From Ilex aquifolium (Eukaryota > Streptophyta > Magnoliopsida > Aquifoliales > Aquifoliaceae), in NCBI GenBank assembly GCA_951799425.1, contig OX637409.1, forward strand, positions 21,916,501-21,980,500: a stretch of DNA of 64,000 nt, in the 5' to 3' direction. The notes beneath the pieces are model-generated. The model worked only from the letters and a program-made list of their open reading frames with translations. It had not been told where the DNA came from and did not search any database. This document shows positions 6,528-54,745 of this stretch, piece by piece. The number at the start of each line of letters is the position of its first letter. The stretch's first letter is position 1. The translations under genes were made by a program, and so were the position numbers.

Positions 6528-6537
6528 CTCAATCCTT

Positions 6538-6804
6538 GAGCTTTTCCCCAAACCCATTCCCGCTCAAAACATAATTCCCCAACCCAGTCGGTTTTCAACT
6601 TAATTCCCAAACCCAGTCTTTTTTTAAAAACGTCATTTGGAATGACGTCTTCTCGCCTTAAAACGTCATTCCAAATGACGATTTTAATTTCAAATTTTTT
6701 GTATGAAAACGTCATTCCAAATGACGTTTTTAAAGTCGTCATTTAAAATGACGTTTTTATCCTGGAATTTAAACGGCGCGTTAACAGAGACGTTAAAAAT
6801 ATAA
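6538..6804 (+). repeat. MULE left terminal inverted repeat
   Basis: Starts GAGCTTTTCCCCAAACCC. It holds four palindromes of 17-19 bp with the pattern CGTCATT-N3-AATGACG at about 6630-6648, 6663-6680, 6709-6727 and 6737-6753. Two further copies (6815-6833 and 6842-6859) lie just inside the element. Each half contains ACGTCA/TGACGT or a close variant. The flanking target duplication is 6528-6537. Confidence 0.92.
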
Positions 6805-6916
6805 GGGTCTGAAAATGTCATTCTAAATGACGTTTTTAAAAACGTCATTTAGAATGACGATTTAAACGGCTCCCTTTTTATTCCTCAAATCTGTCGTTAG
6901 GTTAGGTCAAACATTT

Positions 6917-7060
6917 TGAACGCAGATGAGCTCTCTCCTCCTTCAAAACATTTGAACACATCTGAGCTCTCCTCCTCCTCCTCCTCGAACACATCTGAGC
7001 TCTCCTCCTCCTCGAACACATTTGAGCTCTCCTCCTTCTCCTCTTCAACCACTCTCTCAG
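6917..7060 (+). repeat. Minisatellite inside MULE left end (~27-bp unit)
   Basis: About four to five degenerate copies of a unit of the form GAACACATCTGAGCTCTCC followed by TCC repeats. The array lies about 110 bp inside the left TIR and may be part of the transposase 5' leader. The ORFs that cross it on both strands are low-complexity Ser/Arg/Glu strings produced by the repeat, and I do not call them genes. Confidence 0.75.
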
Positions 7061-7126
7061 CCAGGCATTTGACCGAGTATTCAACAATTCCACAGCAGCT
7101 CCACCAGCGACTGAGCAGACCAGCGA

Positions 7127-7275
7127 TGGAGCACCGATTGAGCAGCGACTGAGGACCGAATGAGCATCGACTGAGCAACGCCTGAGCACTGATTGAGCAC
7201 CGACTGAGCACCGATTGAGCACCGATTGAGCACGGACTGAGCACTGACTGAGCACCGATTGAGCACCGACTGACT
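7127..7275 (+). repeat. 12-bp minisatellite (TGAGCACCGACT-like)
   Basis: About eleven to twelve tandem copies of a 12-bp unit, TGAGCACCGA(T/C)T with point variants. The array follows directly on the preceding one. Together the two form a repetitive subterminal domain of about 350 bp near the left end of the MULE. No equivalent is seen next to the right TIR. The 12-bp period leaves all frames open over short distances and so creates artefactual ORFs. Confidence 0.85.
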
Positions 7276-8503
7276 CCGCGTAATCCACAGCTCCACCAGT
7301 GAGTATGTCCATTGTCCATTCCAGCGTAAATCGTATTTTGACCTCAATTGAATTTTTCCTAAATCCATTCTCCATTCCAGCCCAATCAGTCAAAAGAATT
7401 TAGGGCAAAATCGATTTTGGGCATGTGTACACTATATTTAGGGCAAAATCGATATTTAGGGCGAAATCGATTTTTAGTTCTTGAGAGAATGATGTGAAAA
7501 ACATGTACAGAGAATTAATTGAGATTGTAGTTTAAGGTTGGGAAACATAATAGATACTTTTTCATGTTTTTGGCACTTCATCTGTTACAAATAGAAGAGT
7601 ATAGTAACTTATCTCTGTTCTTAAACATTTGCTTGGTGGATGAAATGAAAAAAATTCATGGTGGAGATTGAGTTGATCATTGGCCAAAGTTTTTTTGAAT
7701 GACTGAGGAGTTGCAATTGTCAAATGAATTTCTGTAAATGGTTAAAGACCAAATGAAGATGACTGATTATTTACTGCAGCCAAACTGATGAGTTTTAATC
7801 CTTACTTCAAAGTAGAAAGTTAGTCCATTTAAACATTGTGATGTGAAGTATTTAAGGTGATTTGTGTTCATTCCTTCTTGCTTGGTTCTTGCTTTCCATG
7901 TAGCAATGTGGAGTCTCAATTAAGTTCATGTACTTAACCTCATTATCAAAAGAATATGACTGATTTGTCTAGATTCAGGAAATGGATTGAACATATTTTT
8001 CTATTAAGTCGTTTAGTAGAAAGTAAATGCATAGTTGTTCATCTTCATTTTTTGCATTGTGGAAATTTCATTTCCTTAAAGAAGCAATATTTTCTTTTTC
8101 TCTTTTTGGTGTGACACACATACTACAATAATATGGTGGAAAATAATTTAGTATTTTGAGGACTGTTCAATTTTTCAATGAAAAAAGCAAGAATTGACAT
8201 AATGAGATAATGATCCGAGGAACAAAAGAGTCATTACCCAGTTTGATAGCTGATAATCGAAAGTGTTGAGAGAAATAAATTAGGTATATCGACCTAATTT
8301 CTAACATTATTTACACAATGTGGCTACTCTAAATAACCATGAAAATGAAGGAAAAACATTTGGTGTAATGAGAGAGAGCGAGAGAGAGACTTGCTAATCG
8401 AGGGTGTTGAGGGAAATAAATTAGGTATCGCCTAATTTTTAACATTATTTACACAATGTGATTACTCTCTAAACAACTATGAAAATGAAGGAAAAACATT
8501 TGA

Positions 8504-8548
<45 letters not shown>

Positions 8549-9577
8549 AAATTATCAAAATATTGAAGCTTCTGTGTTGTTAACATTGATGCAAAATTTC
8601 ATTGGAGCAGCAGTCTTTTTCTAAAGCAAGGATCGAAAGATTTAGAAACGGTCTTCTTTGTAAGTCTTCCTTTTTTTTTCACCTTATAAATGCAATGATG
8701 ATGTATGAAGAATTGGTGATCAATCAAATTCTCATGATGAAAACTACATCATCGGATGGAAAATTATCATATTGGTCTCCGCAAATTTAATAACCATCTT
8801 TTTTGGAATTGAAACTTGGAAATCACCCTTTCTGGAAGGAAGAAAGAAGAACCAATTCTAATTTTTCAGTAGCGATTTTTAAAAACTTCTACTAATTCGA
8901 TATAAAAAATAAGTTGTGTAACGATGAATTCAAAGCATAGACTTTCAAAAGCTCTAGGGGCAGCTAAAGGTGATCCTCTGCAAAATCAGTTAGCATTGTT
9001 GGCTTTCTTGGTATTGGTTTGTCTCTTTATAGTAAAATCCTTAATGAATTGGGTAATATGCTCTCCATAGAGTTGTATAAGAAATTTGGTGCAAAGTTGA
9101 TGAAGAGATTCATAAAGTAGATTTCTTCCTATCTTCCTCAATAACCGCCTGCTCCTCATTATGCAAGGTCTTGAGTTCATTTAGAATTAGGGGCGGAGCA
9201 ATATTGGTGCATTTCTTTAGAACGTATATAGTTTGTGAAATTATTCTGAAAATTTGTGGAAAGTTATGGGTTGATTATTGATGTTAGCTTGTGAAATTGA
9301 AAAGTGGAAATGTGAATGGATTATGCTTAGATTGATACATTGTCGAAGAGCTGGATTTAAACTTGGAGCCTTGTGAAATGCATGTTTAAATGTACTTGTG
9401 TAGCACTGATTTGTTAATGGGTGATTGAAATATAGAACGGGCTACTCGGCTTATATACATTTGAAAGCATGAACAAACAAAAGTTTAGATGAAAGCATGA
9501 ACAAGCCCCATTGATTTTAATGTTTGGGTTGTGGATACACACTAACTTTTGATGTCTTTATTGTAGAATTGTTAAGA
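7276..9577 (+). other. MULE interior upstream of transposase; probable 5' leader
   Basis: No protein of known type is found here. The segment is AT-rich and ends in a plausible splice acceptor (TGATGTCTTTATTGTAG, ending at 9566) eleven bases before the transposase ATG, so at least one 5'UTR intron is likely. A GGTGGA-rich spot near 7640 and many short ATG-led ORFs show no conserved features. A (GA)n run lies at about 8513-8546. Confidence 0.45.
8263..8536 (+). repeat. ~130-bp tandem duplication ending in (GA)n
   Basis: The unit at 8263-8390 (AGAAATAAATTAGGTAT ... AAAAACATTTGGTGTAATGA) recurs at 8410-8512 with a few substitutions and short indels. Both copies run into GA-rich tracts (about 8371-8389 and 8513-8546). 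The first part of the unit is also recognisable at about 1787-1850, outside the MULE, so it may be a captured dispersed repeat. Confidence 0.75.
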
Positions 9578-12286
9578 ATGGCTGGAAGACGTGCTTCTGT
9601 GATGGTTTATTGGGGTGGTACCATATTCAACAACCATGATGTTTTACGATACGATAATGGTTATAAGCGTGTGATCAAGGTTGCTCATGACACAATTCAC
9701 TCGACTTTGGTGGATCGTTTGCATGATGTGACAGGGATAGATAGGAATAAATACAACCTAAAACTTATATGTAGGTTTCCTACTGCATTGGGATCTAACA
9801 TTTTTACATATATTCCACTAGAAGTTGTTGACAACGATGGTGTAGAGGCAATGGTGGATGTTGTATTTGACAATCAAGGTGTTAACAAAGTGGATTTGTA
9901 TGTGAGCGAAGAAGTTAGGGAATATGACATTGGTGGAAGTAATGAAGGTTGGCCTGAGGGTGGTTCATACTCTTCCATGCTCAGCCAACAACCATATATC
10001 CCAGTGCTTGACCCTTCTGCTGTTGTGGGTAATTATTACACCTCTGTAACAATGCAGTGTATGGAAGAATACAATCGATATACACATGCACAGTCTGAAA
10101 CAGGGCCTAGTGCTTTTCCAGAATGCTCATCCCAGCAAGAATACAATGCTACACTGTGTAACGAGGGGATGACAATGATTGAACTACCCCCGACACCGGC
10201 GCCAGTGGACCCTGTCCAAGCACTTGTAGTGCATCAAATTGAAAATAATACATATGAAGGAATGTGTGCTAATGACCAGAATGATTACTACGAACAAGAA
10301 GAATTGACAGAAAATTTATTGAGTGATGATTCTGATGATGATGATTACGATGCTGAAGATAATTCTATTGAGGATGATGGTGAGGTTCCTATGCATGAGC
10401 CGGAGTCAACATTTTTTTCAAACGTTGAATCGGGAACTCAGGATGAAGTTGATAGCTTGTGCAATTTGCATGGAATTAATACATGGGATCCTACAAGACC
10501 AGAACTGGCGAAGGGTATGGTGTTCAAGAGTAAAAAAGAGCTGGAGATGGCAGTTAAATTGTATTCAATTAAGAATCACCAACAATATGTTGTTGTTGAT
10601 ACAAACAAAACACGATGGGTTTTGAGGTGTAAGCAGTATGTACAATATGGCTGCAAATGGAGGTTACGGGCTGTTTTGAAGGCGAAACATGGAATGTTTG
10701 AAATCACAAAATATCCGGCACCGCACACTTGCTTCTACCCAAGGTTGAACCAGGACCACTGTCAGCTTGATGCAGGTTTTATTTCTCAATGGATTGAGGG
10801 TGTGGTTCGGGCTACACCTGATGTAACAATGCCGGTCATCATTGAAATGGTGAGAAAAGAGTATCACTATTTGATAACGTACAAGAAGGCGTGGAATGCG
10901 AAGAATAAGGCTATAGCAAAGGTTTTCGGTGATTGAGATTGTTCCTACAACATTTTGCCGAAGTTTATGGGTGCTCTTGTTAAATACAACCCTGGGACAG
11001 TTGTATTCTGGCAATATGAGGCTTGTGCTCCCGAGTTCAAGACATTTGGAAAGGTGTTCTGGGCATTCAAAGCGTCTATTGATGGGTTTGTTCATTGTCG
11101 GCCTGTAATCAGCATTGATGGCACATTTGTAAATGGCAAGTATAAGCATAAGCTTCTTATTGCCACTAGGATTGACGCTAAGAAGAAGATTTTTCCTCTA
11201 GCATTTGCCTTTGTTCATGAGGAGACTAGTGAAAGCTGGGGTTGGTTCCTATATCATCTACGCCACTCAGTTGTGCCGAATAGAGCTGGTATATGCTTAA
11301 TCTCAGATAGACATAAAGGTATAATCTCAGCGGTTAAGAAACCTGATTCTGGGTGGAATGAACCATACGCCTATCATCGTTTCTGTCTTAGGCATGTACA
11401 AAGCAATTTCAACACACATTTCAATAACACGTATTTGAAAGATCTAGTTTGGAATGCTGGGGCAGCACATCAGATTCGCAAGTATAATTTGATAATGGAA
11501 GAAATTAAAAGTATAGACCCTAAGGCATGGAAGTGGTTAGATGATATTCCAGCACAACAGTGGACACTTGCCCATGATGGTGGTCGGCGATATGGAACAA
11601 CCACAACCAATATTTCTGAGGTGTTCAATGGTGCATTGAAAGGTGCTAGGATGCTTCCCATTACTGCATGTGTGAAATTCATATTTTATCGGCTCGCAAA
11701 ATACTTTTGTGAGGGACGTGAACATGCAAAGCGTTGCATAGATGATGGTATGGAGTACTCACCTGAAGCAATTGAATTTATGCGACCCAACCAGGTCAAA
11801 TCAGGAATGTGTACTGTTACACCATTTCACATGCAACGTGCAATTGCGGAGGTGGTCAGTGGTAACGGTAATACCCATGTTGTTCGTATTGATGACCTGA
11901 CATGCAGTTGTGGAAAATTTACAATTTATAAAATGCCTTGTTCTCATGTTATGGCCGCATGCTCGCATTTCCATGTTAGTTCTTGGAATTTAATCGATCC
12001 AATATATAACATCCATTCACTTGAATCCACATATGCACCTGATCTTCATCCTCTGCACCACCAAGATTATTGGGATAATACCGGTGGCCCTACATTATGC
12101 CCTGATAGGTCGTTGCGTCGAGGCATTAGAGGACGTCCACAGACATCGCGCATACGTAATGAAATGGATTTTCCCAGAGAAGGGCGCAAGAAGAACCACT
12201 GTAGTATTTGTTTGCAATCAGGTCACACCCGCCGAACATGTGCAGCAAAAAACCAATCAGCTTCTTCAATGGGTCATCCACTATAA
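9578..12286 (+). CDS. MULE transposase (MURA type), interrupted by one TGA
   Basis: A 902-codon frame whose product should cut and join the element's TIRs in the nucleus. From the N-terminus it shows: a PB1-like segment (about residues 5-70, beginning RRASVMVYWGG); an acidic linker (about 240-270); a MuDR-type DNA-binding domain with a WRKY/GCM1-like zinc finger (about 310-440, ending in APHTC and beyond); and the MULE DDE domain. The likely catalytic residues are D514 (SIDGTF), D577 (ISDRHKG) and E681 (SEVFNG). A SWIM finger CSC...CSH lies at about 776-790 and a CX2CX4HX4C knuckle at about 875-888. I chose ATG 9578 because it follows a likely splice acceptor; an alternative upstream start in the same frame has no support. 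Codon 453 is TGA (10934-10936), where related transposases usually have Trp, so the copy is probably disabled unless read through. Confidence 0.93.
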
Positions 12287-12498
12287 ATGTTAGTTATGCA
12301 CTCTAATGTTGTATGTAACTAGTATTGCATTATTTATTGTTCGACCACATTATTGTAGATATGATATTTTTTAACGTTACGTAAATTGTTAATGTGTACG
12401 ATCTATTTAAAGTTGGTACATCAACGATATATATTTACGTTGTTATTTATATATCTTAACTCATATTTGTATATGTTATGTTGATGTAGGTTGTAGAC
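12287..12498 (+). other. Short spacer between MULE transposase and PMD gene
   Basis: Only 212 bp separate the transposase stop from the PMD start. It contains TATATATTTACG-like AT-rich words (about 12429-12480) that could act as a TATA region. A splice-acceptor-like TTGATGTAG lies just before the PMD ATG. Whether PMD has its own promoter or is reached by splicing from a transposase read-through transcript cannot be decided from sequence. Confidence 0.4.
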
Positions 12499-15191
12499 AT
12501 GGATCGTGATCCCCGTTCATTAGTACATCCAGGTCCAGATGATGCTTCTGTTCTACACTTACAGGGTGACCATCGGACCACTGCTATTTGGGAGGGTATA
12601 GAGCTACCCCCCTTACATTGTAGATGATCAGAGGCGCCTCTTCGGCGAGTTACCATCACAGACGATAGGGTTATTCAGCATCTACGCACAGCCGGATTTT
12701 ATGGGGCATATCGTCTTAGATATATTCAGCTGGACTGGCATCTTATTACTGCACTGGTAGAGCGATGGCGCCCCGAGACACACACGTTTCATCTGCCAGT
12801 CGGTGAGGCCACCATCACTCTTCAGGATACAGCTTTACTACTTGGCCTTCCGGTTGATGGGATGCCCGTATGTGGTGTAGATACCGTCCGTGACGTACAC
12901 CAGTGGAGTGTCATGTGCACTGAGTTGCTCGGATTCACACCAGCTGACGGAGCTATAGATAAGTCCACTCTACGAATTAGTGCACTGGCCGAGCATTTGG
13001 CCCACGGGATTCCAGCTGATGCGACCGAGCAGTTTATATCATGTTACGCACGATCGTACATCCTGATGTTGATTGGCGGGTTTTTGTTTGGGGACAAGTT
13101 GTCGAGTAGGGTCAAGCTGATGTTCCTACCATTGCTTGCAGACTTACAGGCGGCTGGCACTTATAGTTGGGGCAGTGCGGCCCTAGCATGGTTATATCGG
13201 GAGATGTGTCTCGCTACTAAGCGGGACACGAAGGATATTAGCGGTCCACTTATTCTGCTTCAGGTAATTGCTTGCATTTTTCACTTGGTTGTTTATTTTT
13301 TACTTTTTGTAACTATACATATGTGTAATCAATTGTATTGTGTATGTAGTTGTGGGCATGGGAGCGTTTGGTATCCACAACGTGTGTTACCACGACAGCG
13401 GGTCGCCCATGATGGAGCAGCCCCCGATGTGGCTGATGCAGTGTTACATGGTGTCGGTGTAGACGCAGTTGATGTGGGTGCAGCACATGACGCAGTTGAT
13501 GCGCACGGCGCACATGATGGTCCACTTGGTTGCAGGTTTGTACTAAACATATAATGCCCGTTTTCCTTAAATATTTTACGTTTTATTAAAATATTAAAAA
13601 ATTGTTGAACTTTATAGATGGGATGTCTCATTTTCGGAGCAGCACACTCCTACACATGTACTACGTCACTATCGGGACCAGCTGGACCAGATGCGCGAGG
13701 ATCAGGTATATCAGCTTGTCCATATCTGACGAACTTGAATGTTAGTTGTTAAAGTTTGTTTGTGTGTTGCGATGATTCCTTTGAATTTACATGTGAAGTA
13801 AAAGATATATATTTATGGTGGGATGTTTATTTGAATTTGTTTATGCATGCCATTGTGTTGGGGGTGTTGTATACAGGTTGAAAAAAATTGGAAATGTCCA
13901 ATTTTCAAAGGAAACTCTGCCCAATTTTTTTAAAAATACATGTACATATATTAATCATTGGTCACAATTTGTAATGCAGATGATATGGGAGTCGTATACA
14001 GCTGCTGTCATGGGAGGCCTACCTGATTATTGCCTTATTGGGCAAGATATTTGGCGTACACGAGCCCCATTGATTTGCTTCGATGTCGTGGAGTGGCATT
14101 TTCCAGATCGAGTTATTCGACAATTTGGCCTGATACAGCGGATACCACAGCCATGCGATACCAGCCGAGCCTTACATGCTGTCAACCGGCGAGGTAGATC
14201 TGGTCGGGACTGGTCTGTAGTTCATCAGCTATACACCGAGATGTGGGCACATCGTAGAGATACTATTGTTACCGGTGATCTGATTACTGCACCGATGGAG
14301 CCGACCGACGCATACATGCAGTGGTATCGTCGCATCACACGGCGTTTAGTTGGCCCACCCATCGCTAGGCCGACTGTCGGTTTTCAGCCAGTTGGGAGCA
14401 TCATTGAGCTTTTGGTAATATGTTATATGTTTTACTATTAAAATCGAATGACAAATGTTAATAATTGTTTAATACGATTACTAATGTGTTGAAATATTTT
14501 TTGTAGGAAGAGACTATTACACGGATATATCACACTGCACGTGGTACATATGAGGGCAGCCCGGACTTGACGCGTTGCATGGAGACCATTGGTCGTATTA
14601 CAGATATGAGCGCCTCCTGTTTGAGATCTCTCCAGGAGCACCGACGACTTGACGCATTTTCAGTGTCGGCAGATGACGTACCGTCTACATCTGCACAACC
14701 ACCTCCTCATACTTACCACCAGTGGACTACGCCAGTATCTTCCCTATCAGCATCGACACAGGCGCATGTACCTGCATCGACCCCAGCCCCGACATCGACA
14801 GTGGCGCCTACACATGTACATACACTGACGCCTACAGCACCGGCTCCCACACATGCATCACCATCAGCACTTACTCCCACACTTGCATCACCATCATCAC
14901 CGGATCTGGCTCATGCACCATCAGCACCGGCGCTGGCTCAGGCACCGACTCCCACACATCCGTCTACATCGACACTTCTACCGACATTCCCGCCAGCATC
15001 TTCTTTTGTACTTGACCATACATTGACAGATGCAGCACTTGCATCGACACCGACACCGACTCCTCCATCTACTACGACACTGGCACCTGCAGCGGCACCT
15101 TCAGCTGCACATGCACCCACATCGCCCCCCGCATATGGGTCCACACCGACCACGGCATCTATCACGACACCGACATTGATACCGGCACCAG

Positions 15192-15290
<99 letters not shown>

Positions 15291-15643
15291 TGACACCGAC
15301 ACCGACATCGACATCGGCACAGGCACCGCTACCGACTGTAGTTGCTTTGATACCTACCTCATCTAGACAGCCTCTCGTATCAGATCCTTTGTTAGATGAG
15401 GAGGGAGTGACACAGGATCCTACAGTTGTAGGGGTAGGCCTTGTGCGAGCTGGGCCGCGGGTTAGAGGTGGACGACAAGGTCGGGGTCGGGGGCGAGGGA
15501 GAGGGAGAGGGCGTGCACAGCATGCACATCATCATGATGATGTCGGTGTCTCACAGGTGACACATGTTGTACCACAGGATGCTGAGCAGGAGGTTCGCCG
15601 GCAGCCGAAGCGACGTAGGCGACCACCTGCATGTGGGACATGA
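12499..15643 (+). CDS. Plant mobile domain (MAIN-like) gene in MULE, damaged
   Basis: Five exons by GT-AG reasoning and by likeness to the PMD/MAIN-like family: 12499-13263, 13350-13535, 13618-13705, 13980-14414, 14507-15643. PMD motifs are clear: a start resembling other members (DASVLHLQGDHR), ERWRPETHTFHLPVGE, LLLGLPVDG, YRDQLDQM, FDVVEWHFPDRVIRQFG, QRIPQPC and WYRRITRRLVGP. The tail encoded by exon 5 is a long Ala/Pro/Thr-rich stretch with a pure Thr-Pro run, an Arg-Gly repeat and a basic end (PKRRRR) that could be a nuclear signal. MAIN and MAIL1 of Arabidopsis act in nuclear gene regulation and transposon silencing; the role inside transposons is not established. Codon 43 is TGA (12625-12627), and exon 2 as drawn is one phase off its neighbours, so this copy looks broken early while exons 3-5 stay open. 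Confidence 0.85.
15183..15312 (+). repeat. (CACCGA)n hexanucleotide array inside PMD exon 5
   Basis: About twenty nearly pure copies of CACCGA/ACACCG, flanked by degenerate versions spread from about 14780 to 15330. In the PMD frame it encodes alternating Thr-Pro. Such arrays change length readily, so the disordered tail probably varies between copies of the element. Confidence 0.9.
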
Positions 15644-16090
15644 TGTTCATGTATTGGTTGTCTTATTTTTGATGTACATTGTAACAAAATTTACTTTTGT
15701 ACATAAATTGTCACTTACATGTTCATGTTTTGTTATAGTATTCTTCAATTAAGTTGTCACATACATAATCAATCTTGTACACAACAAATTTAACTCACTT
15801 CAACATTACACGCACATTACATTTCACATGTAAAAATCAACACAACAGTGACATGATCTGGAGAAAACAACACTAACATACAACTTGTTCACAAAACAGT
15901 AAAATAATATTTATACTCGCAAACGCTAACATACCACTTGTTCCCACATCACTACCTTAACACTTGTCCACACAACATAACACTAACTTAACACTTGTCC
16001 GAACAATACCGACTAGACAGTTTATCACACAACACTAACATCACAGTTTAGCACATACGGGTAACATCCAAGTTCACCACACAACATGTT
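15644..16090. other. Convergent 3' region between PMD and small gene A
   Basis: The two genes converge here. 15780-16080 is rich in degenerate repeats of AACACTAACATACCACTTGT-like words, about four to five loosely spaced copies. No ORF with recognisable features is present. The stretch probably holds the 3'UTRs of both genes, but I see no decisive polyadenylation signal. Confidence 0.45.
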
Positions 16091-16528
16091 TCATGGGTCA
16101 ACATCTTCGTCGGACATCTCGACATCAGAAATACATCCAACTTCTCCACTTAGATAGAAACTTATATGTGCGTCTTCCATTAACCCTTCTTCAGCACGTT
16201 CTCGTGCAATGCGACGAAGGTTGTAACGATTAAGACGGATTGCCATGCGATTATTCTCAGCTCGAAAACGATACAATGCTCGCTCCAGTTGTTGAGGTGT
16301 CTCAACTGACATATAGATGGCAATTTGTCGAGGCCTTCGTAAATTGCAAGTTTGCATATCTCCAATAAAATTTTCTCGCTCCGTCATACGATATTGTAAT
16401 TCGGCCCTCATGGTTCGTATGGCCCTGGTAGAATAACGTAAACGAGGATTCATTGGATAGAAGAACTCATCCTCTAAGGCCCAATGATAACCCATATTTT
16501 CATATAGAGTTCTAACACTATAATTCAT
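16091..16528 (-). CDS. MULE accessory small gene A (145 aa), unknown family
   Basis: The protein is not recognised. It is basic in the middle and acidic at the end. Residues about 50-110 contain RRPRQIAIYM, then ENNRMAIRLNRYNLRR, a predicted helix in which N-x7-R (N-RMAIRLN-R) fits the invariant bZIP basic-region spacing. The C-terminus is acidic (SDVEMSDEDVDP). The same order of parts recurs in the genes at 17026 and 17923. A TATATA-type box on the minus strand near 16570-16580 lies about 45 bp before the ATG, which supports an independent promoter. It is divergent from gene B, with a 0.5-kb repeat-rich spacer between them. An intact ORF, its own TATA box and two relatives support a real gene; function is unknown. 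Confidence 0.72.
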   Translation of the reverse strand: MNYSVRTLYENMGYHWALEDEFFYPMNPRLRYSTRAIRTMRAELQYRMTERENFIGDMQTCNLRRPRQIAIYMSVETPQQLERALYRFRAENNRMAIRLNRYNLRRIARERAEEGLMEDAHISFYLSGEVGCISDVEMSDEDVDP

Positions 16529-16689
16529 ATTGGAAATAACTTTTCTTCACTTACTTGCTTAAAGACTGTGAATATATAGTGAATACACAAATCTCCCAAC
16601 AACTGACCATATCAATACAAACACTGTCATGAAGTGACAACTTTCTGCTCTGTCATAATGCTAAAGAAGAAAAACTGACTACTCGTGAC

Positions 16690-16860
16690 TACTTATTGTC
16701 ATGTGTTGAAGTGACTACACTTGAATGAGTTTCAGTAGACCATGTGGTGAAGTGACAAAACCCTGAATGGGTTTGAAAATACCATGTGCTGAACTAACAA
16801 AACCCTGAATGAGTTGTTGCATTTCATGTGTTGAAGTGACAACACACATTTAATAATGGC
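16690..16860. repeat. Degenerate tandem repeat between small genes A and B
   Basis: About four copies of a 40-50 bp unit that starts CATGTG(T/G/C)TGAAGTGAC and continues ACAAAACCCTGAATGAGTT in the middle copies. It lies in the divergent spacer between genes A and B, and so is placed to act on both promoters. The function is inferred from position only. Confidence 0.7.
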
Positions 16861-16982
16861 AAAGACTGAAATGACCATACACTAGTCTGCTGAATGACTA
16901 TACCATATATGACATCTGATCACTACACTGTTTCACTATTGACTGATATGACATGTCTAACACAGTAAGCTTGGGACACTGC

Positions 16983-16990
16983 TATTTAAA
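16983..16990 (+). promoter_or_regulatory. TATA box for small gene B
   Basis: TATTTAAA, preceded by GC, lies 36-43 bp upstream of the ATG at 17026. The short leader between them matches the arrangement at gene C. Confidence 0.5.
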
Positions 16991-17025
16991 CACCATTTTG
17001 CCGTTGATATGACAAACACAACATT

Positions 17026-17469
17026 ATGTCTACATCAAATTTATCTATGAGCTTTAACAATCGCAGACGTGAACGAGTGTGGTTGTTACAAGAGCGGAAC
17101 GATGATTACAAGAATGAGAGATTTTCCGATCCAAAAGAGTATTATGCAGGAGTGCGACGAGAGTGGACTTTTCGTGTTAAAGAATCAGACGAACTATTTA
17201 CACAAGTAAGAGAACTTGGTATACCAGTGCCTCGTAGACGATCACTAACAATGCAACGCCGGAATAGAGAGGACTACGAATCAGCAGTAAAACAAGTTCG
17301 AAGAGAAAATAATAGAATACTGGTTCGTAGGTCTCGTTATTATATGCTCCAACAAGCAAAAGATATGATGGGAACTGCACATGGACGAGAGTTGACATTA
17401 GTTGAGCAAAACAATATATTGTCTAATGCACAATACATGTCAGATGATTATATGTCTGATGAACCTTAA
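17026..17469 (+). CDS. MULE accessory small gene B (147 aa), bZIP-like motif
   Basis: Single-exon ORF with ATG and TAA. It opens MSTSNLSMSFNNRRRERVW, continues with a charged helical region, then IPVPRRRSL, and then VRRENNRILVRRSRYYML (about residues 92-109). That last motif is strikingly close to a bZIP basic region: NR followed by RRSR, with N-x7-R spacing (N-RILVRRS-R). No leucine heptads follow, so a classical zipper is absent. The tail is acidic (SDDYMSDEP). It shares its layout with genes A and C and has its own TATA box. I infer a DNA-binding or regulatory role for the MULE, without direct proof. Confidence 0.75.
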   Translation: MSTSNLSMSFNNRRRERVWLLQERNDDYKNERFSDPKEYYAGVRREWTFRVKESDELFTQVRELGIPVPRRRSLTMQRRNREDYESAVKQVRRENNRILVRRSRYYMLQQAKDMMGTAHGRELTLVEQNNILSNAQYMSDDYMSDEP

Positions 17470-17499
17470 CAACGTCTGCATTTGTTCAGGTCTGAGATA

Positions 17500-17840
17500 G
17501 CAAGACTTTCTTACCAGTGTAGTGTCAAGTCATGTCAGTCATTTGTATTTGAATTGTTATGTTTTTTCTTTTTCATTCTGAACTAATTTCATTGCTTTGT
17601 TAGTGTAGTCAGTCTACTGATTAGTCATGTCAGTCCTGTTTTATCAGTGTAATCAGTCTAGTGACAATTCATGTCATTAATTTATCAGTGTGTAGTCATA
17701 TCATTACTTTATCAGTGTGTCGTCAGTCTACAGACAAGTCATGCCAGTCCTTTTGTATTCACGAGTTCTGTCATTACTTTATCAGTGTAGAGTCATATCA
17801 TTATTTAACTTGTGTCAAGTCATGTTACTTGTACCCAGTA
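17500..17840 (+). repeat. Degenerate tandem repeats between small genes B and C
   Basis: At least six loosely spaced copies of a unit around AGTCATGTCATTACTTTATCAGTGT. Frequent words are GTCAGTC, TCATGTCA and TATCAGTGTGTAGTC. The array fills the spacer from just after gene B to just before the TATA box of gene C. ORFs at 17661 and 17717 across this array are repeat artefacts. Confidence 0.7.
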
Positions 17841-17879
17841 ATTGTCTTGTCAAATTTATATATATTTGTATTTCGTGTC

Positions 17880-17887
17880 TATATAAA
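17880..17887 (+). promoter_or_regulatory. TATA box for small gene C
   Basis: TATATAAA within GTCTATATAAACC, 36-43 bp before the ATG at 17923. The spacing suggests a very short 5' leader. Confidence 0.6.
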
Positions 17888-17922
17888 CCATCTTTATTAA
17901 TTGTGTACATCATAGCCAAAAT

Positions 17923-18618
17923 ATGTCTACCCGCACCTCTAAGAGGCAATCCAGTCAAACCACCCAATGTTCTTCATCACGCAATGATCAACAAAGTTCA
18001 TCTTCACCCTACGAATGTCAACACTCGACTGGCCGAGCAGCATGTGGTGTAGACGTAGTTCGTTCAATTGAATCTTACACAGATTCTACCGGTGTAACTT
18101 GGTATGGACAAAAGCGTGAGTTCCGTAATGAGCCCATCGACCCTTATCACTCATTCGGTCAAGTTGGACACGTATTTGTAGGGCCTGCGACCGACTCTCC
18201 GCCTTCGAGTGTTCGTATAGAACCCACTCCAAGATGGCGACTATTATATGACAAACGTTGTGAGCTTGAAGTATGTTGTCGTTGGCATGGATTAATGGTA
18301 CCGAAGGCACGTTCGGCTGATTTATATGATCCACAAAACTCTACCAACCATAACGATATCATATCAATGCTTGAACGTGAAAATGATCAAATGCAGCGTA
18401 GACTTGATCGTTTGCATGCAATCGACCATGCAAAAATTGAGCATTTCGATCCAGATTATGCTGAGATGCAAATTTTGCAGGATCCATTACTTGTTTCAGA
18501 TACAGAACTTTCAGATTATTCCGATTTAAGTGATGATGCGTCTGACACTTTTATTCCATCGAGTTTATGTGTAATGGGCAACCCTCTATGTTGTTTTCTA
18601 TATCAACCACAATATTGA
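17923..18618 (+). CDS. MULE accessory small gene C (231 aa), same family
   Basis: Single-exon ORF. The N-terminal 40 residues are Ser/Thr/Gln-rich and probably disordered. A middle domain with WYGQKREFRNEPIDPYHSF and EPTPRWRLLYDKRCELEVCC has no counterpart in gene A or B. The C-terminal half aligns with them: LMVPKARSADLY, then LERENDQMQRRLDRLHAID, where the position of the bZIP-type Asn is Asp, and then an acidic tail (SDTELSDYSDLSDDASD). About 25 hydrophobic, Cys-containing residues follow this tail. It is the last gene before the right TIR and has its own TATA box. The family is unrecognised, and function is inferred only from membership of the trio. Confidence 0.75.
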   Translation: MSTRTSKRQSSQTTQCSSSRNDQQSSSSPYECQHSTGRAACGVDVVRSIESYTDSTGVTWYGQKREFRNEPIDPYHSFGQVGHVFVGPATDSPPSSVRIEPTPRWRLLYDKRCELEVCCRWHGLMVPKARSADLYDPQNSTNHNDIISMLERENDQMQRRLDRLHAIDHAKIEHFDPDYAEMQILQDPLLVSDTELSDYSDLSDDASDTFIPSSLCVMGNPLCCFLYQPQY

Positions 18619-19291
18619 CGGACTGTATTTCTTATAGTTTCATGTAATCAAGTTGTTTTGTTTTAATGTATAAGTATCTTTTTCCATATTTTGAAGTTTT
18701 TCGCACTTTTGTAGGTCATCTATCGATGAACATTTATACCATCAAATTATAATACATAATTTTTTTAGCATATACACAACAAATTTCTAAAAAAAAAAAT
18801 GTTTTAAAAATTTTTTACAGTGACGTTTTTAAAAAATGCTGAGTTTGAGAAAAAAAATTTTAGGTCCTACTTGGTTTGGGGAAAAGCTCATCCAGATTGA
18901 TATATGATTTTATGACATGAGAAGTGAGATTATAATATTGAGATTCTTTTTATAGCATCTTAGTAAATCATGGGTTTATATACTTTTTCATATAAATGTG
19001 AGCTTTCAAAACACACGTTTTTAACTTTTTTTATTAAATATATGTTTTACAAATATGTTTTTATATTGAAATATATGAAATTAAATTATGCTTTTATATT
19101 TTATAAGTTAATAAGTGAAATAAGTTAATATTTATTATGAAAAGGGAATTTAATTCTAAAATTTATTTAATTTTTTTTTTTCTGGTGAATCATGATGTGA
19201 GATATAAACTTTATTACAAGTTGGTGGTGATTTTTTTGGCTAAGAAAATCATTTGGAATGAGTAAAGTTTAAAAAAAAAAATTCGGAAGAA
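18619..19291. other. MULE right subterminal region, no gene
   Basis: AT-rich sequence, including the 3' flank of gene C, poly(T) and poly(A) runs and no recognisable ORF. Unlike the left end it has no minisatellite. It stops at the right TIR. Confidence 0.6.
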
Positions 19292-19558
19292 TTATATTTT
19301 AAACGTCTCTGTTAACGCACCGTTTAAATTCCAGGATAAAAACGTCATTTTAAATGACGACTTTAAAAACGTCATTTGGAATGACGTTTTCATACAAAAA
19401 ATTTGAAATTAAAATCGTCATTTGGAATGACGTTTTAAGGCGAGAAGACGTCATTCCAAATGACGTTTTTAAAAAAAGACTGAGTTTGGGAATTAAGTTG
19501 AAAACCGACTGGGTTGGGGAATTATGTTTTGAGCGGGAATGGGTTTGGGGAAAAGCTC
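19292..19558 (-). repeat. MULE right terminal inverted repeat
   Basis: Reverse complement of the left repeat with two C/T differences and one A/T difference over 267 bp. It carries the same four ACGTCATT...AATGACGT palindromes (about 19342-19470). It ends GGGGAAAAGCTC and is followed by the target duplication at 19559-19568. Confidence 0.92.
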
Positions 19559-19568
19559 CTCAATCCTT

Positions 19569-30209: not shown

Positions 30210-30757
30210 TGATGATGTACAAAATAGTCTCGTACAAGATCAACAGTCAAGTGTGTGATAAAGTGTAATTAATGAACAGTTAATAGAGCAATCAATGACA
30301 ATAATGTAGATATTGAGTCACTCCACTCTGAGAAACAGCAACGGTGGCGGGGGGTCTTTATTGATGAAGTAAGGTAAACGAGAGAGAGCAATGGTTAGCT
30401 CTGGGAGACATACAATAGCTAAGAGAGAGAGAAGTTATGTGTAGAGGGATGTAGAGATACCTCTCTCAATGGAGAGAGCTTATAATTTGTAGGCACAGAG
30501 CCTTAGTTGAGACTCTGACTTGAGGGGGAAGACACTAATTCTTCGGAGAGAATAACCACAAAAGGTTAGTACAATTAAAGAGTATATTGATCTTCGAGAG
30601 TGAATATCCCAATAATTCCTCCCCCCGTGCTCTAATCCTTCTGCACTCCTTGAACTCTGGACTTGACTGAATCCATGAATTGGGCTTGACCCACCTTGTA
30701 GTTGATTTGGGCTTAGCTCATTAATTGTGTCTGACTCAGTAAAATCTGGACTCGTCA
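30210..30757 (-). mobile_element. Solo-LTR-like repeat, copy 1 (fossil)
   Basis: On the minus strand it begins near TGACGAGTCCAGATTTTACT and ends ACATCATCA. Over its length it matches a plus-strand copy at about 48721-49293, including CTCTGTGCCTA(T/C)AAATT, AGAGCTAACCATT and a CAATAAAG polyadenylation-like word. Length (about 550 bp), a TG start and CA end, and signals for promoter and polyadenylation suggest a long terminal repeat without its internal part. I could not confirm a 5-bp target duplication, so the ends are approximate. Confidence 0.5.
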
Positions 30758-37385: not shown

Positions 37386-38029
37386 AAGTTATGAAGTACG
37401 GATATGAATACGAAATACGTATATGATATGATATGGATACCGTAATACAACAAAATCTAAAAAAGTACTATATGGGTATGACCAAGATACAACTATAATA
37501 AAATATATTTAATGTTTTTATTATTTTCAACCAGTTTAATACTTATATATTTTTGTAGTTCTTTAACACACAATAAGGAAAATTAATAATTCTTTTTAGT
37601 TCCAAGAAAATCTATATAGTATCACTATGGTATATTCACGAAGTGAAGTGACTAATTAAAGGAATTAAAGTTAATATTTACCTAGTATAAAGAAGTAATT
37701 TTTGCTAAGATTATAATGTAATAACTTTATTTTATACTCTTATGACATGTAATTGTAGATAATACTTAAGAAACACTCATGTGCCTTTGAAGTAATATGA
37801 ATTTTTGTTAATATATTGTATAGTATGTGAATTCGAAAAGAGATATTAAAAATTTAACTCAAAAATTATATATGTTATTCGACCACAAAAGTATCCGTGA
37901 AGTATTCTAATATTTTATTATTATCGGATACGTAGAATGTGTATAAGACACGTATTCTCGAGTATCTGACGAGTATTGTATCTGATACGGGTATGTCAAC
38001 ATCAACGAAATATCTGTACTTCATAACTT
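37386..38029 (-). mobile_element. MITE-like inverted-repeat element, copy 2
   Basis: Ends AGTTATGAAGTACGGATA and TATCTGTACTTCATAACT are inverted repeats with one mismatch over 18 bp. The interior is the reverse complement, with divergence, of the copy at 2259-2926. It is non-coding. Confidence 0.7.
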
Positions 38030-38879: not shown

Positions 38880-39843
38880 GGAGAATTACACTCCTAGGGT
38901 TTGTCACTTAATTACTCAGACTCTTTGACATTTAAAATATTACACACAGACCTCCTAAAATTTGTAAGCGCGTAACACTTGAACCCCTGTTTTTAATGTC
39001 CGTTTGTATATCTGTTAGTAAATTACACTCAGACCCCTTGAAGTTTGTAAGCATGTAATACTTGGAACATTCAAGTTTAAAATGTTATATTTAGACCAAA
39101 AATACTCCAATCAAAGATAGAATATCAAATATTTTAAATTTTACAGCCAAAATTCATGTTCTATTATGACATTTATTGAAATAAAATCAATAATAAAAAT
39201 CTAATTTTTTCTTAAAAAACATAATTAGTATATAATTATATTATGTATTGAAATTTAATTTGGTTGTTTAAGCTACCAAATTATTTAAATTAAAACTAAA
39301 AGATATTGTGTCTATTACAATTTGACCCCATATTTGATTTTTTAATTTTATTCTAATAGATAGTATACTTGTATATTAAGTATAATTTTTTAAGAAAAAA
39401 TTAGATTTTCTTTTTGATTTTATTTCAATAAATGTTATAATAGAACATGAATGATTATGAATGATTTAGATCACTTGTTTAATTTTTTAGTTTTATTCTA
39501 ATAGATAATATAATTGTATACAAATTACGATTTTTGAAGAAAAAATTAAATTTTTATTTTTAATTTTATTTCAATAAATGATACAATAGAACATGAATTT
39601 TGGTTGTAAAATTTAAAATATTTGATATTCTATTTTTTATTGGAGTATTTTTATTCTAAGTATAACATTTTAAATTTGAGGGGTTTAAGTATTATATATC
39701 TACAAACATTAGAGGGTGTGAGTGTAATTTACTAACGAATATACATTAATGACAAGGGTCTAAGTGTTACATTGTATAAAACTCAGGGGATTTGTATGTA
39801 ATATTTCAATGTTAAGAGATCTGAGTAATTAAGTGACAAATCT

Positions 39844-48476: not shown

Positions 48477-49467
48477 ACCAACTAATTCAAATTTAGATTC
48501 GATTAGTAGGGAATGCATTGATATTTTCGATTGATTATCTGAATTTGACTTATTTTATTATATCTATATTTTAAGGAACTGGATTTCAATAAATCAATAT
48601 TTGATTTGAATGATATACATGTGTGATAAAACATAGTGATTTATTGATGAAATTGAGTGAAATTTCGATGCAAGTTATCTAAAATTCAGTTTTAATTGAG
48701 TTGTTTGGCTTGAAATTGAGTGAAATGAGCCCAGATTTTACTAGGTCAGGCCCAATAAATCGAGTAAGCCTAAATCAGCTAAAAGGCAGGTCAAGTTCAG
48801 TTCGTGAGTTCGACCCAGTCTAAGGGTCAAAGAATCCAAGGAGATTAGAGCACATGATGAGCAATCATCGGGATACCAACTCTCAAAAATCAAGGCAATC
48901 TTTAATTGTACTTACCTTTTTTGTAGCTCCCCGAAGAACTAGTATCTTTACCCTCAAGTCACCGCTTCAACTAAGACTCTGTGCCTATAAATTGTGAAAG
49001 GGGCACCTCTACACCTCTCTACACATAGCTTTTTTCTCTCCTAGCTATTGTACTGTTTCTGGAGCTAACCATTGTTCTCTTTTCTGTTCATCTTACTTTA
49101 TCAATAAAGGTCCTCCGGCCACCGTTGCCATTTCCTAGAGTGGAGTAGGTCACTCGAACCGAACTACTATATATCTATGTGTTGACCCAATATTTACCTC
49201 TTTGTCATTGATTGTTTTATTAACTGTCTCGATAATTCCTTGCATCATACACTCGACTGTTGATCTTGCATAAGATTGTTTTGTGCATCATCAGTTTGAC
49301 TTGGATCACATTTTTGGGTTCAAATTCTTTATTTTTAGCATATTTGGAAATGCAATGTGAAAAGAAAATCCATTCAGATATTTCGTCAGATTTGGATTTA
49401 AGTTTTGAAATCGGATTTAAATCAGCTAAACTTCAAACCAAATCCAATCAGCTAACAAACCTATTGT
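48477..49467. mobile_element. Possible hAT element interrupted by an LTR-like repeat
   Basis: The left end TAGGCCTACCAACTAATTC and the reverse complement of the right end, TAGGTTTGTTAGCTGATTG, form an imperfect inverted pair. The flanks TTGCAAT and TTGTAAT are similar but not a clean 8-bp duplication. If real, the LTR-like repeat at 48721-49293 inserted inside it. Tentative. Confidence 0.35.
48721..49293 (+). mobile_element. Solo-LTR-like repeat, copy 2 (fossil)
   Basis: Plus-strand copy of the repeat at 30210-30757. Shared blocks include CCAGATTTTACT, GAAGAACTAGTATCTTTACC, CTCTGTGCCTATAAATTGTG, GGAGCTAACCATTG, ATCAATAAAGGTCC and GTGCATCATCA. No internal retroelement region is attached. The ends are set by comparison of the two copies and may be off by a few bases. 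Confidence 0.5.
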
Positions 49468-53176: not shown

Positions 53177-53872
53177 TCCTACATTTAGATTTTTTCAAAA
53201 GCACAAAAAGTGTCCTATTTACATCACCCATGTATCTTTGAAGTTTCTTTATTTGACTGTCGATCATAACACTCTTATCATGTTTGCTGCTTGGTCAATT
53301 AGCAAATAAAAAAGTCGTTATTATCCAGTGTTATCCCTTAGTCAATTAAAAAAGTCGTTTTTGTTATCCCTTAGTCAATTAAATCATCCCAAGGAAAGAA
53401 GAATTAAAAATGAAATCATGCTATTATCACTAACTCTCCTCATTAAGACTTTGTCCGACTTCATTATATTGTAAATGACCCTCAAAATTTATAAATAAAA
53501 AAAAAAAGCTTCACAAAAATTATAAATGGCAGTACGGTACAAAATTTTTTCCCCGATACCGTAAGACTTCTATAATATATGCCTAATTCAGCCCATTTTA
53601 TGAAGTTTGAGATATCTCATAGGAACTGGCAAGAAAGAGAAAAGAAAGAACCTTGAAAGTCTCTGTGAGATGCAAATTCAAAGGTGAGAGAGCAGAGAGA
53701 ATCATATTTAATACAAATATGGGCTTGTCAGGAAACTGAATTTCATTACCTTTTCTTCCCATTTCTTTTCCTCTGAGTTTCCTCTTTGGATTAACGAAAA
53801 GCTTATTCTTGCCCTCAATTAGGAATCCCTCTCTCTGTCTCTCAGTGTGTTTGTGTGTTAATTCTGCACAGA
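53177..53872 (+). promoter_or_regulatory. Upstream region of the DUF868 gene
   Basis: AT-rich to about 53600, then a CT-rich stretch (CCCTCTCTCTGTCTCTCAG near 53827) that looks like a plant 5' leader just before the ATG at 53873. No definite TATA box could be picked out from the many AT-rich words. Confidence 0.35.
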
Positions 53873-54745
53873 ATGAGGGACATAGCCTCTTGTATTAGTG
53901 ACTATGCAACACAAGTGTCTGATTCTTCTTGTTCTAGTTATTCAAACCATTCTTCTATCTCTCCTACTCTTATCCCTTCAATCCAAAATGCAGTCACCTG
54001 TGTATACAAAACCATCCTCTCCAATCAAAAGCAGCTCTTTATCACCCTCAAATGGAGCAAGAACAATACCTCTCAAGGCCTATATATAAACTTTAATGGT
54101 GATCCATCAACCACTTTTAGGAAGAAGAAAGGCAGCAAATCATTCGAATTCGATAATTCCAAGTTTGAAATTATCTGGGATTTCTCTGCAGCCAAGTACA
54201 GTGCTGGCCCTGAACCAATTGTTGGATACTTTGTCTTGATCATGGTTGATTCAGAACTTGGCCTAGTTCTTGGTGACATGTCTGAAGAAGCATTTGCAAA
54301 GAAGCTCAAACTGGGAACGAAAATTGCTAAATTCTCATTAGTTTCGCGACAAGAAAACTTTTCAGGCAAAGACCTTTACTCAACTAAGGCTCAATTCTGT
54401 GATAATGGGGCTGTACATGAAATTTTGATACGGTGTAGAGGAGAAAATGAAGGCCTAAAGCACCCGGCTCTATCGGTTTGTGTAGATAAGAAGACGGTGA
54501 TTCTTGTAAAGAGGCTGCAATGGAATTTCAGAGGAAACCAGACATTTTTTGTTGATGGATTGTTGGTTGACCTGATGTGGGATGTTCATGATTGGTTCTT
54601 CAATTCGGCCTCAGGCTACGCGGTGTTCATGTTCAGGACAAGAAGTGGAATGGATAGCAGGTGGTGGTTGGAGGAGCAGGTGATGGAGAAAGAGCAAGAG
54701 AAAGTTGAATTCTCATTATTTATCTATGCCTGTAAGATCCCATAA
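53873..54745 (+). CDS. DUF868 family protein, single exon
   Basis: ORF of 290 residues from ATG 53873 to TAA, in one exon, as is usual for this plant-specific family. After a Ser-rich N-terminus it shows CVYKTILSNQKQLFITLKWSK, FEIIWDFSAAKYSAGPEPIVGYFV, LVSRQENFSGKDLYSTKAQF, HEILIRCRGENEG, PALSVCVDKKTVILVKRLQW and VDLMWDVHDWFFN, all typical of DUF868. The C-terminus is SLFIYACKIP. The biochemical role of the family is unknown. An in-frame GTG-led extension at 53855 is less likely than the ATG. The ORF looks intact. Confidence 0.92.
   Translation: MRDIASCISDYATQVSDSSCSSYSNHSSISPTLIPSIQNAVTCVYKTILSNQKQLFITLKWSKNNTSQGLYINFNGDPSTTFRKKKGSKSFEFDNSKFEIIWDFSAAKYSAGPEPIVGYFVLIMVDSELGLVLGDMSEEAFAKKLKLGTKIAKFSLVSRQENFSGKDLYSTKAQFCDNGAVHEILIRCRGENEGLKHPALSVCVDKKTVILVKRLQWNFRGNQTFFVDGLLVDLMWDVHDWFFNSASGYAVFMFRTRSGMDSRWWLEEQVMEKEQEKVEFSLFIYACKIP

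Follow-up and report, generated by a model that had tools for sequence, protein, structure and literature searches.

What might a transposable element be doing with five genes of its own? The question is raised by a stretch of 64,000 nucleotides from the genome of Ilex aquifolium (GenBank assembly GCA_951799425.1, contig OX637409.1; here C19:21916501-21980500), which as a whole is referred to as the window, and particularly by one transposon within it, W, extending from window position 6538 to 19558. Between its ends W carries a transposase gene, a gene for a protein with a PMD domain and three small genes, here called ORFc, ORFd and ORFe (ORF, open reading frame), with ORFc on the reverse strand. 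The five gene-like units described in an original prediction, made from the letters of the window, thus are all present. In short, this gene set recurs across families of related elements despite changed gene order, with ORFe not found in one of them, and the ends of all five families that were read consist of arrays of a 17-bp, CpG-bounded palindrome, with half-sites kept in four of those families and spacers being family-specific.

By every feature tested, W is a Mutator-like element (MULE). Mutator elements are recognized by target-site duplications of 8-11 bp and by long terminal inverted repeats (TIRs). The TIRs of W, which had been described as near-identical, are 267 bp in length, inverted and 98.88% identical; those of two other families are 328 bp (C14a, considered below) and 232 bp. 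The perfect 10-bp duplication that also had been claimed, CTCAATCCTT, is found at both flanks, and it is no chance match, given that perfect 10-bp duplications of differing sequence flank other copies. That is, following a DNA search of the 800-Mb genome with the TIR, in which the best 40 of 587 candidates were scored, 12 further TIR-paired places were compared with W, and perfect 10-bp duplications are seen in 11 of the resulting 13 elements (W included), as well as in the families C14a and C7b. The two exceptions are C19c, with a duplication of 9 bp, and C11, where truncation of the right end has left none. Pfam matches on W, all above cutoffs, are to PF03108 (MuDR DNA-binding; 3.8e-12), PF10551 (MULE; 5.3e-18) and PF04434 (SWIM; 1.7e-7), and PF10536 (PMD) matches two exons at 2.6e-51 and 1.1e-24.

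To what degree, then, do the five genes travel together? Protein searches of the genome scored the best 150 of 674 matches for ORFc, of 921 for ORFd, of 785 for ORFe and of 392 for the first PMD exon, along with the best 94 of 2004 candidates for the transposase core, with matches clustered at a 12-kb gap. Among the matches listed there are 317 clusters, including 21 that hold all five genes in the order of W, i.e., transposase, PMD, ORFc (reverse strand), ORFd and ORFe, as well as 8 having the order transposase, ORFd, PMD and ORFc (reverse strand), with ORFe not among the matches listed there, possibly because the best matches only were scored. Another gene of the set lies within 12 kb for 125 of the best 150 ORFc matches, 136 of the best 150 for ORFd, 105 of 150 for ORFe and 117 of 150 for PMD, with chance linkage at about 0.5% per gene list; likewise, 83 of the 95 transposase matches listed have PMD, ORFc, ORFd or ORFe within that distance. 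At least 150 ORFc matches, i.e., the best 150 of 674, are all at least 61% identical. The small genes occurring in this copy alone, which the original prediction had named as an outcome that would count against it, is ruled out by these matches to ORFc, ORFd and ORFe throughout the genome. Clusters of a single gene among the matches listed (45 of ORFe, 33 of PMD, 25 of ORFc, 14 of ORFd and 12 of transposase) can be fragments or instead an effect of scoring the best matches only. No ordinary host copy of ORFc, ORFd or ORFe was recognized among the best 150 matches of each, the single-gene clusters not having been inspected individually, and it is unlikely that the small genes are ordinary host genes.

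Four further families were read (C14a, C7b, C14b and C12), each with four or five of the genes between inverted ends. C14a is the closest to W, being 12.7 kb in length with TIRs at 98% identity, a 10-bp duplication, GAATAATCAG, and five genes in the order of W, with amino acid identities to W of about 87% for transposase, 94% for ORFc, 91% for ORFd and 89% for ORFe. Open in C14a are its transposase, ORFc, ORFd, ORFe and the exons of the PMD domain. C7b, at 12.2 kb and with the 10-bp duplication TTCCAAATTG, has four genes, of which ORFc and ORFd are open, and which are more distant from those of W: transposase 54% (with the N-terminal part encoded in a different frame or exon), PMD 63-67%, ORFc 69% and ORFd 66%. 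In C14b all five genes occur in a permuted order, with ORFd between transposase and PMD, and identities to W are 54% for the transposase core, 63% for ORFd, 64% for ORFc and 53% for ORFe. The ends of C14b were placed by comparison with a sister copy, C16, the outer duplication of which is sure for 8 bp only. C12 has all five genes as matches, in the order of W, plus end arrays. Transposase identity among families thus goes down to 53-54%, and the N-terminal half of the protein diverges faster (35% to C14b) than does the core (54%). The same genes found between similar TIRs, with different duplications, is what the original prediction had proposed as support, and such recurrence is seen here in separate families, two of them with 10-bp duplications of their own.

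The ends of these elements share more than inversion. In the window, the palindrome CGTCA-N7-TGACG is found at nine sites, all of them in or just inside the TIRs of W, and the same half-sites at spacings of 3-6 or 8-12 are not found in the 64-kb window. Each of the 12 other W-family elements likewise has CGTCA-N7-TGACG in its ends, as do C14a, C7b and C12, with three short W-family elements having in addition one interior site. What differs among families is the spacer, of which the common forms are TTTGGAA (W), TTTGCAA (C14a), GATGGAC (C7b) and an AACGGAC-like one (C12), and within one TIR most units agree in spacer. Genome-wide there are 3217 sites with N7 versus 133 with N8, reversed-pattern controls giving 254 and 143, respectively; pairs of units separated by 5-30 bp number 1186 versus 0, with several per TIR.

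C14b and C16 have no CGTCA-N7-TGACG. Their ends carry instead AAAGCG-N13-CGCTTT, the sole spacing found among 4-15, and genome-wide this pattern is seen 958 times versus 5 for a control which is the reversed pattern rather than neighbouring spacings. Both kinds of motif nonetheless have two CpGs 15 bp apart, i.e., a 17-bp unit with a CpG at each end. When CpG spacings of 5-24 were counted in five stretches, CG-N13-CG came out as the commonest in each, with the reservations that C16 has an additional five at N14 and that the stretch from C12, of 1.5 kb, is mostly interior. Arrays of the AAAGCG type also flank a permuted set of ORFd, PMD and ORFc matches at C1:21889303-21905831. Motif kind and gene order go together so far, that is, across the few families read.

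The original prediction had spoken of three related small genes. For ORFc and ORFd this holds, as by sequence comparison they clearly are paralogues: identity is 25-31% over about 105 residues, tblastn E-values go down to 8.7e-10, and hhalign gives a probability of 97% and an E-value of 6.5e-11. ORFe is probably, rather than firmly, a distant relative of ORFd. Single hhalign comparisons gave E 0.0015 and a probability of 17% for ORFe with ORFd, and E 0.024 and 2% for ORFe with ORFc. With a model of ORFd, 17 of 18 ORFe sequences score above all 540 shuffles, and in the reverse search a model of ORFe places 17 of 19 ORFd sequences, and 0 of 20 of ORFc, above all shuffles; the E-values of these model searches rest on related, not independent, sequences. 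All three proteins have an acidic S-D-x-x-x-S-D stretch near the C-terminus. Against Pfam none of the three matches a family above cutoff, and searches of PDB sequences gave none, or chance-level matches only (best E 0.41 and 0.13). From a non-plant collection, no relatives of ORFc or ORFd were found in viral contigs and none of ORFc in prokaryote genomes. A helix of ORFd (NRxxxRRSR) had been read as that of a bZIP protein, a reading which stays a lead only because the motif is partly kept in ORFc and ORFe, no leucine zipper is apparent by eye and there is no Pfam bZIP match.

Over longer distances the small genes appear to have been under constraint. Ratios of nonsynonymous to synonymous substitution (dN/dS), with synonymous sites saturated or nearly so for several distant pairs, are 0.20 for ORFc, 0.29 for ORFd and 0.25 for ORFe between W and C14b, and 0.20 for ORFc and 0.34 for ORFd between W and C7b. 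Between W and C14a they are 0.33 and 0.38 for transposase, 0.17 and 0.15 for PMD, 0.25 for ORFc, 0.87 for ORFd and 0.40 for ORFe.

What purpose might such a set then serve? We lean modestly toward a kit that is encoded by the element for its own use, with one or more element proteins reading the palindromes and with the helpers, together with PMD, preventing silencing or tuning the TIR promoters. The helper genes, that is, would have been kept since they are useful to the element itself. The element protein or proteins, being either the N-terminus of the transposase or an ORFc/ORFd dimer, may bind the palindromes as dimers, and the CpGs of the palindrome could make that reading methylation-sensitive. 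Helpers along with PMD would keep TIR promoters unsilenced or instead tune promoter activity, and a family-specific spacer or half-site would restrict each kit to its own family. Parts of such a scheme have been reported from elsewhere. VANC proteins bind short repeated motifs of their own VANDAL family and remove its silencing (PMC5735166, PMC10398659); the TIRs of MuDR hold promoters and the maize transposase MURA binds a motif in Mu TIRs (PMC3310237); and in Arabidopsis silencing involves the PMD proteins MAIN and MAIL1, an anti-silencing role of MULE-borne PMDs being those authors' speculation (PMC5418596). A more far-reaching version may be offered as well, though it is unlikely in full: ORFc, ORFd and ORFe would be a new family of transposon proteins which, with PMD, forms an anti-silencing complex reading a methylation-sensitive 17-bp CpG palindrome, with spacer and half-site serving as a key to the family, its coding having changed one or more times (TGACG-N7 versus AAAGCG-N13), a system analogous to VANC and independently evolved.

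A number of observations weigh against an element-encoded kit. ORFc and ORFd are 63-64% identical to those of C14b, which has the other half-site, versus 66-69% to those of C7b, which has the same half-site; these proteins therefore are not pointed to as readers of the motif, as they are hardly more diverged across half-site types. The N-terminus of the transposase, which changes faster, is as good a candidate for reader of the arrays as are ORFc and ORFd. In maize, a decrease of TIR methylation is reported for MURA itself (PMC10398659), and helpers may accordingly not be needed. Between W and both C10 and C4a, the changes in ORFc and ORFd all are nonsynonymous, i.e., constraint is not visible at short distance, and for ORFd dN/dS reaches 0.87 (W-C14a) and 1.08 (W-C2b). 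ORFe was not found in C7b at 1e-3 and therefore may be dispensable, in C14b it has one in-frame stop, and the last PMD exon of C14a shifts frame within the repeat region. Lastly, at C13:20579928-20582451, with a W-type TIR match nearby, there are stops in ORFc, ORFd and ORFe.

Might the small genes instead be passengers, that is, pieces of host genes captured as by Pack-MULEs and copied without function? Gene capture by MULEs is frequent, with C1b, C7 and C19c carrying foreign interiors in this very genome, and the W-C10 and W-C4a comparisons just mentioned are what passengers would show. ORFc and ORFd nevertheless are open, with low dN/dS, down to protein identities of 63-69%; the set is common to families with 53-54% identical transposases and to two gene orders; and the small genes match as single unbroken stretches, with no host-like copy recognized among the best 150 matches of each. 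Passengers therefore are highly improbable. The palindromes, from another perspective, might be host sites for bZIP proteins of the TGA class (as-1-like, with two TGACG cores), i.e., a promoter under host regulation, with the small proteins unrelated to the TIRs. The as-1 element does resemble TGACG with a 7-bp spacer, and half-sites are constant and spacers variable across four families. The cores of as-1, however, are direct repeats, while those of the W arrays are inverted, and in the family with permuted gene order the 17-bp CpG frame is kept while the half-site is a different one, AAAGCG, so a fixed host factor would not explain the arrays. We consider host regulation improbable.

Less easily set aside, though still doubtful, is that the helpers are part of the transposition machinery, as has been proposed for maize MURB in integration, with the arrays being transposase sites repeated for avidity. 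MURA binds a motif of about 32 bp inside Mu TIRs (PMC3310237) and mudrB apparently is required for integration (PMC6446971). The arrays of the window, furthermore, are restricted to the TIRs and just inside of them, and the transposase diverges faster in its N-terminal half, with 35% identity to C14b versus 54% for the core, as a changing DNA reader might. C2a and C19b, however, are without PMD, ORFc and other parts and yet sit between 10-bp duplications of their own, an objection which is weakened in that their deletions possibly followed insertion, or help may have come in trans.

Neither PMD nor one or two extra ORFs are new to MULEs, as indicated by mudrB, vanB/vanC and Abermu (PMC5418596, PMC6446971, PMC9168764). 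PMD is reported as common in the groups MUDRAVI2, MUDR, MDR and MULE-Monocots by Dupeyron et al. 2019 (PMC6446971), and PMD in MULEs is described as well by Ikeda et al. 2017 (PMC5418596). Such PMD-bearing MULEs resemble W in combining a SWIM-finger transposase with PMD, in having 9-10 bp duplications and in their long TIRs (80-290 or 30-320 bp; PMC6446971, PMC5418596). PMD is in sense orientation to the transposase in W, however, while it often is described as antisense in those groups. W also has three further conserved small genes, with no such set appearing in those parts of the published group descriptions that were compared, a comparison with descriptions rather than with a transposase tree or Repbase.

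VANDALs and Hiun (VANA, VANB, VANC) of Arabidopsis are like W in being MULEs with a transposase plus helper genes, of which VANDALs have two, and half of the members of the VANDAL group are reported to carry PMD and/or a DUF (PMC6446971). VANDALs nonetheless mostly are without TIRs or have short degenerate ones (some members 46-174 bp), with duplications of 9 bp, versus 267-bp TIRs and 10 bp in W, which thus lacks the degenerate ends typical of VANDALs. The motif given for VANC, moreover, has 9 nucleotides and lies within tandem repeats of non-coding DNA, while that of W is a 17-bp palindrome.

MuDR of maize has two genes only, versus five in W, and is not known to carry PMD. The two are alike in their long TIRs, which in MuDR hold promoters and transposase sites, and in both a further gene runs on the opposite strand (PMC3310237, PMC9168764). 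Abermu of barley similarly is a large TIR MULE whose transposase is accompanied by two ORFs without known function, one of them antisense; it differs from W, with its five genes and 10-bp duplication, in having three ORFs, 9-bp duplications and TIRs of 138-145 bp, and the description of Abermu makes no mention of PMD (PMC9168764). A MULE with this gene set or with such CpG-palindrome arrays was not found in a search of the open-access literature; absence from print is not established by this, as subscription papers, Repbase and plant proteomes were outside of the search. Few plant transposons are reported to have anti-silencing proteins of their own, these being VANDALs and transposase-linked cases (PMC10398659). 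A lineage combining a gene kit with a countable, family-specific palindrome code would be a testbed for transposon PMDs versus silencing, and would allow study of the evolution of a private recognition code between a transposon and its ends.

As to W itself, features of which are listed in the table, the copy is not intact. Its transposase has a premature stop at codon 453 of 902 (10934-10936), where C10, C4a, C11 and C2a have TGG. Of these four copies, C4a and C2a have an open gene, while that of C10 is interrupted by a stop at codon 832 and that of C11 by a frameshift. The PMD gene of W has a stop at 12625-12627 as well as an 8-bp deletion after 13373, in exon 2, neither of which is found in C10 or C4a. 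The five-exon PMD model, its GT-AG introns having been inferred from sequence without cDNA, gives an open protein of 848 amino acids in C4a and is not open in W or C10. Given TIRs that differ at 3 of 267 sites, we infer that W is a recent insertion, the transposase and PMD of which have since been lost by mutation. Both of the nonsense changes are G:C to A:T relative to sister copies (TGG to TGA at 10934-10936 and CGA to TGA at 12625-12627), the direction that decay of methylated DNA would give.

Table. Features of the window, with positions counted from its first nucleotide.
Feature	Position	Strand	Remarks
MULE copy W	6538-19558		TIR to TIR; contig C19
Left target-site duplication CTCAATCCTT	6528-6537	.	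Perfect 10-bp match to 19559-19568
Left TIR, 267 bp	6538-6804	+	98.88% identical to right TIR; facing match pairs elsewhere in genome
Left array CGTCA-N7-TGACG	6631-6859	.	Sites 6631, 6664, 6710, 6737; 6843 just inside TIR
Transposase gene of 902 codons, read as a single exon	9578-12286	+	DBD_Tnp_Mut, MULE and SWIM domains; open in C4a and C2a
PMD gene	12499-15643	+	PF10536; exons 12499-13263, 13350-13535, 13618-13705, 13980-14414, 14507-15643
ORFc, 145 aa, pI 5.8	16091-16528	-	Open in W, C10, C4a, C2b
ORFd, 147 aa, pI 9.6	17026-17469	+	Paralogue of ORFc
ORFe, 231 aa, pI 5.1	17923-18618	+	Probable distant relative of ORFd
Inner degenerate TIR-like end (..ggtttggggaaaagctc)	18821-18889	.	669 bp inside true right end
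Right TIR, 267 bp	19292-19558	-	Inverted relative to left TIR, 98.88% identical
Right array CGTCA-N7-TGACG	19343-19465	.	Sites 19343, 19370, 19416, 19449
Right target-site duplication CTCAATCCTT	19559-19568	.	Perfect 10 bp

The PMD protein has a C-terminal part with TP repeats, RG repeats and a basic tail. Against PDB sequences it has no relative at E 1, and a match to DUF1985 in a PMD exon, at E 0.018, is below the Pfam cutoff; DUF1985 is a domain linked with VANC. Tandem repeats inside W are found at 7105-7273, 8251-8528 and 15141-15336, the last of these being the source of the TP repeat, and the length of that exon varies among copies.

Among the other copies of the W family, C10 and C4a are full length, each between its own 10-bp duplication. 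Whole-copy identities vary with the alignment used: by BLAST, W and C10 are 98.8% identical over 12.8 kb, and W and C4a 98.9% over 8.7 kb plus 97.7% over 4.1 kb, while in a MAFFT alignment that includes the unrelated flanks the figures are 97.5% and 97.3%, respectively. C11, C2a and C19b are deletion derivatives and C2b is a more diverged partial copy. Across the seven aligned copies, the parts that remain are open for ORFc in 5 copies, for ORFd in 6 and for ORFe in 7. The other six, C1a, C4b, C1b, C7, C19c and C3, have W-type ends with interiors largely unmatched to W. Three of these, C1b, C7 and C19c, are short elements with W TIRs whose foreign interior, in long matching blocks about 98-99% alike, includes the stretch TIVTGAGDETLRFWHVFPS, resembling a WD40 cell-cycle gene (FZR/CCS52-like), which looks like capture of the Pack-MULE type.

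The inner TIR-like end on the right side of W has a local alignment score of 48, versus 26 as the best of 200 shuffles, and may indicate that the element acquired a new terminus outside this one. In tandem-TIR MULEs (Ferguson and Jiang 2012; PMC3310237), too, an additional TIR-like end is reported internal to the true one, though that of W differs in being a short degenerate remnant on one side. A weak hint of the same inner end is seen at local positions 12110-12154 of C14a (45 bp, 78%, E 0.47).

Outside of W, the window has inverted-repeat pairs of 75-81% identity at 2318-2907 / 37393-37987 and 30210-30753 / 48727-49293, possibly parts of other elements, along with a close, foldback-like inverted repeat at 38900-39252 / 39496-39840 (81.5% over 357 bp). 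Long open frames are found there at 53795-54745 (316 aa) and 59683-60939 (418 aa).

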